Origin: Candidatus Stoquefichus sp. SB1
GTDB taxonomy: Bacteria; Bacillota_I; Bacilli_A; Erysipelotrichales; Coprobacillaceae
Length of the DNA: 64,000 bases
NCBI RefSeq assembly: GCF_001244545.1
Contig: NZ_LN852695.1
Span: 775,158-839,157 of the forward strand
Reading direction: 5' to 3'
Made by a program: the position numbers and the translations under genes. Numbering within the stretch: the first letter of the stretch is position 1; every line of letters begins with the position of its first letter. The notes under the pieces are model-generated. The model searched no databases. It was not told the origin of the DNA and saw nothing but the letters and a program-made list of their open reading frames with translations. Positions 59,106-61,470 of this stretch are shown here, piece after piece.

Positions 59106-59789
59106 ATGGAAAAGAAAAATAGATATTTTCAATGGATTTTTTTATTAGGAATTGTTGTGAGTTTTGGGGTACAATTTGTATATATTCTCTTACCTCAATG
59201 GACATTAACATTGTTACAAAAACTTATTTTATTAAGTATTCAAATGATTTCCATTGGTAGTTATACACATTTTCGACTCATTAATTCAAGTTTAAAAGAA
59301 AGGAAAAAAGGTTTTTTGAAAGCACATTGGATTGTGTTTGTCATATATTGTCTAAATCTTATATACGTTTTATTTTTAGATCCTGATTTTGGCAGGCAAG
59401 TGTTTAAGGAAACATTATCTTTTGAAGAATACTGGAAATATAATGTTAATTTAGATTTGTTTGAAACAATACAATTATTTATCAGAGGTTATCAAAATCA
59501 TATTGTGAGTTTAGAAACATTATTAAGAAATATATTAGGGAATTTAATTGTTTTTATGCCTATGGCTTATTTTTTACCAGTTTTATTTGCTTGTCAGAGA
59601 AAAGTTTATATTTTTTTGCCAACACTTTTTATGATGGTTTTAAGTGTTGAAGTTTTACAGGTCATATTCAGAATAGGAAGTGGCGATGTTGATGATTTAT
59701 TTTTAAATGTTGTGGGGGCTTTTTTGATGTATTTATTTTTGAAATGCTTACCACTTGAGCATATTTATGCATTAAAAGAAAGGAATTAA
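59106..59789 (+). CDS. VanZ-family membrane protein
   Basis: The 227-residue membrane protein has about six hydrophobic segments. The VanZ signatures are in the second half: NILGNLIVFMPMAYFLP and EVLQVIFRIGSGDVDDLFLNVVG. VanZ gives low-level teicoplanin resistance in Enterococcus, but most VanZ-like genes have no known role. The ATG at 59106 has no visible ribosome binding site and lies seven bases from a -10-like box, so it may be translated from a leaderless message. The next gene starts two bases after its stop, making it the first of a three-gene operon (VanZ, NusG-II, HdeD-like/papain-like). Confidence 0.85.
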   Translation: MEKKNRYFQWIFLLGIVVSFGVQFVYILLPQWTLTLLQKLILLSIQMISIGSYTHFRLINSSLKERKKGFLKAHWIVFVIYCLNLIYVLFLDPDFGRQVFKETLSFEEYWKYNVNLDLFETIQLFIRGYQNHIVSLETLLRNILGNLIVFMPMAYFLPVLFACQRKVYIFLPTLFMMVLSVEVLQVIFRIGSGDVDDLFLNVVGAFLMYLFLKCLPLEHIYALKERN

Positions 59790-59790
59790 A

Positions 59791-60138
59791 ATGAAGAAAA
59801 AGGATATTATTGTGATTGTTGTATTGTGTTTAGTTATTGGAATTGGTTATTTTGTTTATCAAATGTTTCAGGGAGAAAAGAATATTGTTGAAGTATATTA
59901 TAAAGATAAGTTAATTCAACAAATTGATATTTCAATAGATAAGACATATACTTTTGAAGGAAGTTATGGAAAATTTAATTTAGAAGTCAAAGATCATCAG
60001 TATCATGCTGTTGATGTAGAATGTCCAAATCATGATTGTGAAAAAATGGGTTGGGTGAAAGAAGGAAGTTCAAAAACAATTATGTGTTTACCTAATGAGA
60101 TTTATGTTGTACAAGCAGAAACTGAGGACGCATTTTAA
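59791..60138 (+). CDS. NusG domain II protein (membrane-anchored)
   Basis: The 115-residue protein has one N-terminal membrane segment (about residues 5-24) and an extracytoplasmic NusG-II domain with the signature ECPNHDCEKMGWV. Proteins of this type often sit next to FMN-binding domain genes and ApbE/Rnf- or EET-like electron-transfer loci in Bacillota; an FMN-binding protein gene is in fact 1.3 kb downstream. It is coupled to VanZ before it (two bases) and overlaps the next gene by one base (TAATG). Role unknown. Confidence 0.88.
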   Translation: MKKKDIIVIVVLCLVIGIGYFVYQMFQGEKNIVEVYYKDKLIQQIDISIDKTYTFEGSYGKFNLEVKDHQYHAVDVECPNHDCEKMGWVKEGSSKTIMCLPNEIYVVQAETEDAF

Positions 60139-61361
60139 TGAAAAATAAATTTCATTTTTTTCTAACATTCCTGCTAGGAATGTTATTTGTTTTTATAAGT
60201 ATTTTTGCCTTTGTATATTCATCTTATTTTGTATATACAATTGTCATTTTGCTTGGATTGATTATTCTTGTAGATGCCTTGTTTAATATTGTTAAAATGT
60301 TAAGTACTCATAAGAATCATTTTTTACAATATTTGATTCACATCATGATTGGTATATTATTCCTTCTTTTTCCTCAATTGCCTTTTTCATTTGTTATTGT
60401 TATTTTTGCTTTGTATATATGTATTGCTGGATTATCACATTTTATAACTTATTGTTATTATCGAAAAGAAAAAGTAAATGGCAGAATGATCTTCTTACTT
60501 GCTTCCATTGTTTTTCTTGCTGGTGGTGTATCGTTTTTGCTGTCACCCTCAGTACATGCTCAAGAAATGACAATCATTTTTGCTATTTATAGTTTATATT
60601 TAGGTGTGAAATATATTTCTCAATCCATTCGTGAATTGTTATCAGAAAATCGTGTGAATTCTTTAAAAAGACATATTCGTGTTTCGTTACCTGTTTTTAT
60701 GGTAGCATTAATGCCAAGAATAGTGATTGAATATATAAATGAACATTTAGAAACAGATGATATTATTGTTGAGGCATCTCGTACAGGTGATTTAGAAGTA
60801 TTGATTCATGTGAGTAAAGATGGTTTTGGAGCGATTGGACATGTTGATATTTGTTATAATCATGAAGTCATAGCGTATGGTGCATACGATGAAGCATCAA
60901 CTCGTTTATTTGGTGCCATTGGTGATGGGGTTTTATTTATTGTAGATAAGCAAAAATATATTCCGTTTTGTAAACAGGATGATCCAACGAGCCATGTTTT
61001 TGGTTATACACTTTCATTAGATGAAGTACAAAGAACCCATATTGAAGAAACAATTCAAAAGTTTAAAGAGAATCTTATTGCATGGCAACCACCGATTTAT
61101 TATCATGCAAAAGCAAATGATTATGCGAGTCGTTTGTACAGTCACACTCAAGCACAATTCTATAAATTTAAAAAAGGACAATTTAAATATTATTTTGTAA
61201 TGACAACAAACTGTGTATTATTGGCTGATCGTATTATTGGTAAGTCTGGAATAGATATTGTCAATATGAATGGAATTATTACACCAGGAACATATTTTAG
61301 TTATTTTGAGGAAGAAGCTAAAAAAGAAAATTCAAGAGTATTATCAAAAACACTATATTAA
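60138..61361 (+). CDS. HdeD/DUF308-like membrane protein fused to a permuted papain-like domain
   Basis: The 407-residue protein has an N-terminal half with about six hydrophobic segments in paired hairpins (residues 5-175), similar to HdeD/DUF308 proteins. The C-terminal half (about 190-400) is soluble and has a histidine in AIGHVDICYN (H235) and a cysteine in TTNCVLLADRI (C359), in the His-before-Cys order of circularly permuted papain-like (LRAT/YiiX/NlpC-P60-like) hydrolases. The family identity is my inference from the motif order and not a confirmed match; a non-catalytic role is possible. It overlaps the NusG-II gene by one base and ends the VanZ operon. Confidence 0.6.
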   Translation: MKNKFHFFLTFLLGMLFVFISIFAFVYSSYFVYTIVILLGLIILVDALFNIVKMLSTHKNHFLQYLIHIMIGILFLLFPQLPFSFVIVIFALYICIAGLSHFITYCYYRKEKVNGRMIFLLASIVFLAGGVSFLLSPSVHAQEMTIIFAIYSLYLGVKYISQSIRELLSENRVNSLKRHIRVSLPVFMVALMPRIVIEYINEHLETDDIIVEASRTGDLEVLIHVSKDGFGAIGHVDICYNHEVIAYGAYDEASTRLFGAIGDGVLFIVDKQKYIPFCKQDDPTSHVFGYTLSLDEVQRTHIEETIQKFKENLIAWQPPIYYHAKANDYASRLYSHTQAQFYKFKKGQFKYYFVMTTNCVLLADRIIGKSGIDIVNMNGIITPGTYFSYFEEEAKKENSRVLSKTLY

Positions 61362-61405: not shown

Positions 61406-61458
61406 TTGACAAATCATAAAATATGTAATATATTACATATATAGGTAATGTATTACCT
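61406..61458 (+). promoter_or_regulatory. Promoter with two tandem operators before the FMN-binding/MarR operon
   Basis: TTGACA (61406-61411) and TATATT (61429-61434), spacer 17. A perfect 20-bp palindrome ATATGTAATATATTACATAT (61421-61440) covers the -10, and AGGTAAT-GT-ATTACCT (61443-61458) follows. Both contain GTAAT-N2-ATTAC, with centres exactly 20 bp apart, two helical turns. Confidence 0.7.
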
Positions 61459-61470
61459 AAAGGAGAATAT

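Follow-up and report, generated by a model that had tools for sequence, protein, structure and literature searches.

A DUF308/HdeD-like membrane protein of Candidatus Stoquefichus fused to a predicted cytosolic, permuted papain-like domain

Do three tightly packed genes of Candidatus Stoquefichus sp. SB1 form one envelope system, as an earlier note on this DNA proposed, and what might the third of them, a fusion of an HdeD-like membrane protein with a further domain, do? The genes lie in the window, by which we mean the whole 64,000-nucleotide stretch of DNA that was analysed. The open reading frames that the note had described are present, and Pfam assigns each of them:

59106-59789, + strand: VanZ-family membrane protein, 227 aa (Pfam PF04892, E 5.9e-20)
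59791-60138, + strand: membrane-anchored NusG domain II protein (NusG_II), 115 aa (Pfam PF07009, E 8.8e-19)
60138-61361, + strand: fusion gene, DUF308/HdeD-like six-helix protein plus C-terminal domain (Pfam DUF308, E 1.8e-9 to 1.1e-10)

No NCBIfam name scored above its cut-off for VanZ, NusG_II or the fusion protein. A single base separates VanZ from NusG_II, and NusG_II overlaps the fusion gene by one base (TAATG), so the three are likely co-transcribed. The FMN-binding (FMN_bind), MarR and flavodoxin genes just 3' of the fusion gene look like a separate unit, since they are preceded by a near-consensus promoter-like match (61406-61434), followed by two palindromes at 61421-61459 (ATATGTAATA/TATTACATAT and TAGGTAAT/ATTACCTA). 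The arrangement resembles an autoregulatory MarR operator.

The case for a single envelope system rests on the operon-like packing, which recurs in Candidatus Stoquefichus massiliensis (the best named homologue of the fusion protein, 75% identical, with identical gene order), and on NusG_II adjoining the fusion gene in Longibaculum and VanZ adjoining it in Beduini. However, a neighbour survey of 60 related genomes, 25 of which carry the fusion gene, and of 41 distinct named loci gives a different picture. NusG_II adjoins the fusion gene in 3 of the 25 genomes (G000, G001 and G019); in the remainder it lies on another contig or at a distance, and it is absent from G031 and G049. It is present in 46 of the 60 genomes regardless of the fusion gene. 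VanZ sits beside the fusion gene at 2 of the 41 loci (Stoquefichus and Beduini only), streptococcal fusion genes have neither VanZ nor NusG_II alongside, and among the 25 genomes all three genes occur together in only two, both of the window's genus. The neighbourhood is not conserved across genera, and a tally of neighbours for a conserved partner found none that was dominant; GDPD, an AI-2E transporter, a HAD hydrolase and others each occur at a few loci. As NusG_II and VanZ are seldom beside the fusion gene and its neighbours differ by group, the set is local, and VanZ and NusG_II are incidental neighbours rather than conserved partners. That the three genes constitute one system, as first suggested, is now very improbable.

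The usual streptococcal neighbour of the fusion gene is an AI-2E-family transporter, which directly adjoins it at L058, L060, L068 and about 27 other loci (downstream in streptococci and Granulicatella, upstream in Globicatella); a functional link between the two is possible. In Thomasclavelia-like genomes (L035, L037, L039, L041, L042 and L045), a glycerophosphodiester phosphodiesterase and a large AdhE-like gene precede the fusion gene, and a CTP-synthase-like gene follows it in several. Several consecutive genes occur directly 3' of the fusion gene at the clostridial loci L074 and L109, including one for an FkbH-N-like protein at L074. The pooled neighbour proteins include four instances of DHHW/AlgX-like (SGNH, O-acylation-type) families, for which these two loci are a possible source.

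The fusion gene itself is found in Erysipelotrichales, Oscillospiraceae, many streptococci, Granulicatella, Globicatella, Isobaculum, Aerococcaceae and one Saccharibacteria contig (L082, 1749-3020). There is also one clear full-length copy in Arachnia propionica (Actinomycetota, 68% GC; L075, 7710-9047), and the copies in Arachnia propionica and Saccharibacteria suggest that the gene has spread between phyla. A search with the C-terminal domain was positive in 32 of 392 genomes of the wider group, with nearly all matches in open reading frames of 408-481 aa, a length that accommodates the membrane part. The protein can be divided as follows:

60138-60635, + strand: DUF308/HdeD-like six-helix membrane part, residues 1-166 (Pfam DUF308, model helices, charge counts in 49/49 sequences)
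60636-60749, + strand: K/R-rich basic linker, short hydrophobic segment between P185 and P193, amphipathic stretch (alignment, models)
60750-61361, + strand: permuted papain-like (NlpC/P60-type) domain, H235...D251...N358-C359 (invariance, model, hhalign, Foldseek BFVD)
60840-60842, + strand: codon of predicted catalytic His235 (GHVD motif)
61212-61214, + strand: codon of predicted catalytic Cys359 (TNCV motif)

The six-helix HdeD-like membrane part that the note had recognised is borne out by the DUF308 match, detected in 25 of 26 family members, and by six helices in the model (residues 2-26, 28-57, 62-77, 80-110, 117-135 and 141-167). Lysine and arginine make up 22.5% of loops assigned inside versus 5.7% of those assigned outside, a bias shared by all 49 sequences counted, and by positive-inside counting both termini of the six-helix part are predicted to be cytoplasmic. 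The hydrophobic stretch after the basic linker is ~10 residues long, lies between invariant prolines 185 and 193, and is followed by a charged amphipathic stretch. Both the full-length and the C-terminal models break the helix at P193, where model confidence is low. Its length is insufficient to span the bilayer, and the segment is probably an interfacial anchor. Given termini placed inside by charge and a segment too short for crossing, the catalytic domain is most likely cytosolic. Peptidoglycan, which had been raised as a substrate, becomes unlikely because the domain is predicted to face the cytoplasm.

Residues H235, D251, N358, C359, G234, G248, G262, G264, G379, P383 and G384 are invariant in all 104 homologues (K343, Y352, D237 and others nearly so), and H235 and C359 are also invariant in a smaller set of 26. 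H235, D251, N358 and C359 are retained in homologues down to about 23% identity. As judged from these alignments, the invariance is well beyond chance, and the conservation of the two residues on which the note based its permuted papain-like reading is upheld. A histidine that precedes the cysteine, with both invariant, is the order expected of this superfamily.

An AlphaFold2 model of the C-terminal domain, built from an alignment of 53 sequences, has a pLDDT of 82.5 and a pTM of 0.78. Its top match among the viral models of BFVD, based on Foldseek, is a 'Cysteine peptidase' (E 2.7e-3, prob 1.00), and weaker matches are a Pithovirus lecithin retinol acyltransferase (LRAT, prob 0.77) and a PPPDE protein (prob 0.63). 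Foldseek comparison of the full-length and C-terminal models with the PDB gave no significant match, a PDB sequence search with the fusion protein found none, and viral contigs searched with the A2 and Lnb_N queries yielded no relatives. Profile comparison by hhalign, with column-shuffled profiles as controls, gave a score of 34.3 against a Lnb_N/DUF4105 set (controls: mean 14.7, sd 2.6, max 25.3); this set came from plasmid records, retrieved with a query made up of DUF4105 motifs, in which several of the retrieved genes are annotated as DUF4105. Scores were 26.8 against C92/YiiX (control max 19.9) and 16.6, at control level, against bacterial LRAT profiles (control max 20.0). The hhalign probabilities were only 34-49%. 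When the Lnb_N alignment is extended, three motifs line up with their counterparts: GH, YG and the catalytic NC.

Invariant His before Cys, above-control Lnb_N and C92 scores and the Foldseek matches together support placement of the C-terminal domain in the permuted papain-like (NlpC/P60) superfamily, in agreement with the note. Of the relatives that the note had put forward for comparison, the YiiX profile gave similarity above the controls, and LRAT gave a viral model match but stayed at control level by profile. Domain order, invariant residues, superfamily-level similarity and topology by charge are shown for the fusion protein.

Which relatives are closest? For Lnb/DUF4105 (PF13387, Lnb_N; the Bacteroides lipoprotein N-acyltransferase), the closest profile, the GH, YG, NC order is shared, and both proteins combine a membrane part with a permuted papain-like domain. 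However, in Lnb the catalytic domain comes first, with the helices after, and is periplasmic by its Pfam name, whereas in the fusion protein the membrane part comes first and the domain is predicted to be cytosolic. The Pfam Lnb_N model is matched weakly by 4 of 53 family members (best E 9.3e-4), and two members checked singly against PF13387 scored 15.5 and 15.1 bits, below the cut-off of 22.2. Because the Pfam cut-off and the architecture both fail, Lnb_N membership is unsupported, and on these comparisons the fusion protein is not an Lnb. A Lnb_N search of 295 genomes of the phylum returned a lone weak match, L110, which lacked the motif on reading and was discarded.

For YiiX/Peptidase_C92 (PF05708), the permuted order is shared and profile similarity exceeds the shuffled controls, but the Pfam model does not reach the fusion protein and YiiX has no DUF308 part. 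LRATs work at membranes. LRAT/HRASLS (PLAAT) proteins (PF04970) share the His and the later N-C motif, but PF04970 has no match in the fusion protein and LRATs lack a six-helix membrane module. HdeD/DUF308 proteins share the N-terminal module, but HdeD itself is not known to carry a catalytic domain at its C-terminus.

Permuted NlpC/P60 enzymes act on lipids. Two reports (PMC12994826; PMC7387801) describe Lnb as N-acylating lipoproteins, LRAT and HRASLS as transferring acyl chains, and YiiX-like enzymes as acting on lipids. In Staphylococcus aureus, the permuted NlpC/P60 protein LnsA is needed for N-acylation and, likewise, works with a membrane protein, LnsB (PMC7387801). Unlike the fusion protein, these are two separate proteins, LnsA having a predicted signal peptide and LnsB being CPBP-like rather than DUF308. 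Lnb and LnsA act outside the cell, whereas the catalytic domain of the fusion protein is predicted inside.

Might the fusion protein nonetheless be a Gram-positive counterpart of Lnb, a lipoprotein N-acyltransferase with its domain outside the cell that acylates diacyl- or lyso-lipoproteins? The Lnb_N profile match and the LnsA precedent are consistent with this, as is a Gram-positive-enriched branch of the DUF4105 tree in PMC12994826, which may overlap with the fusion family. Yet it takes segment 184-200 as a seventh transmembrane helix, where the hydrophobic stretch is short, proline-bracketed and broken in both models, and the domain order is opposite to that of Lnb. Moreover, all 25 related genomes carrying the fusion gene and 8 of 10 other, named genomes, four streptococci included, encode Lit, which places an acyl chain on the amine of the lipoprotein (PMC13251419); they therefore have an N-acylating enzyme in any case. 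Lit and the inward topology together make the N-acyltransferase reading less likely, and we consider it doubtful. Our best guess is then an acyltransferase or phospholipase working on the inner leaflet; its main competitor is a juxtamembrane peptidase.

The fold does not dictate acyl chemistry, since peptidases (PPPDE) are found among the permuted papain-like enzymes as well. The His and Cys residues would suit just as well a cysteine peptidase or PPPDE-like deconjugating enzyme that faces the cytosol, is anchored by the HdeD module and trims a protein associated with the membrane; the Foldseek matches to the 'Cysteine peptidase' and the PPPDE protein fit this reading. Nevertheless, the nearest profiles, Lnb_N and C92, belong to families that the literature links to lipids, and no conserved neighbouring protein substrate is encoded at the fusion-gene loci; we regard a peptidase, too, as unlikely.

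We rate at about even the chance that the fusion protein is a membrane-embedded, permuted papain-like thiol enzyme that serves as a cytosol-facing acyltransferase or phospholipase on inner-leaflet lipids. The six-helix DUF308 module would anchor the enzyme, with the catalytic domain hanging into the cytoplasm and docked on the inner leaflet by the proline-bracketed segment. H235, helped by D251 or Y247, would activate C359 at the start of a helix, and C359 would accept, in thioester linkage, the acyl chain of an inner-leaflet lipid before handing it on to an acceptor lipid, a protein amine or hydroxyl, or water. The acyl chemistry, the donor and the acceptor are what we infer here. Against this reading stand the empty PDB comparison, the low hhalign probabilities, the control-level LRAT score and the variable neighbours.

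This widespread enzyme family is uncharacterised, and among the papers searched none ties DUF308/HdeD to an acyltransferase or to such a domain. Tentatively, and with somewhat less than even confidence, we propose an undescribed one-polypeptide enzyme of streptococci and gut Erysipelotrichales that works from the cytoplasmic side of the membrane, acylating or remodelling lipids (or membrane proteins). It would be a relative of the Lnb branch turned inward, in which a permuted papain-like domain is attached to an HdeD-type module. Permuted papain-like enzymes are newly recognised as lipoprotein- and phospholipid-acyl enzymes of bacteria. If the proposal is true, a family present in common oral streptococci would have its active site across the membrane from theirs, pointing to inner-leaflet acyl chemistry that nobody has assigned, and it would account for a class of genes whose sole recognised feature at present is the DUF308/HdeD part.
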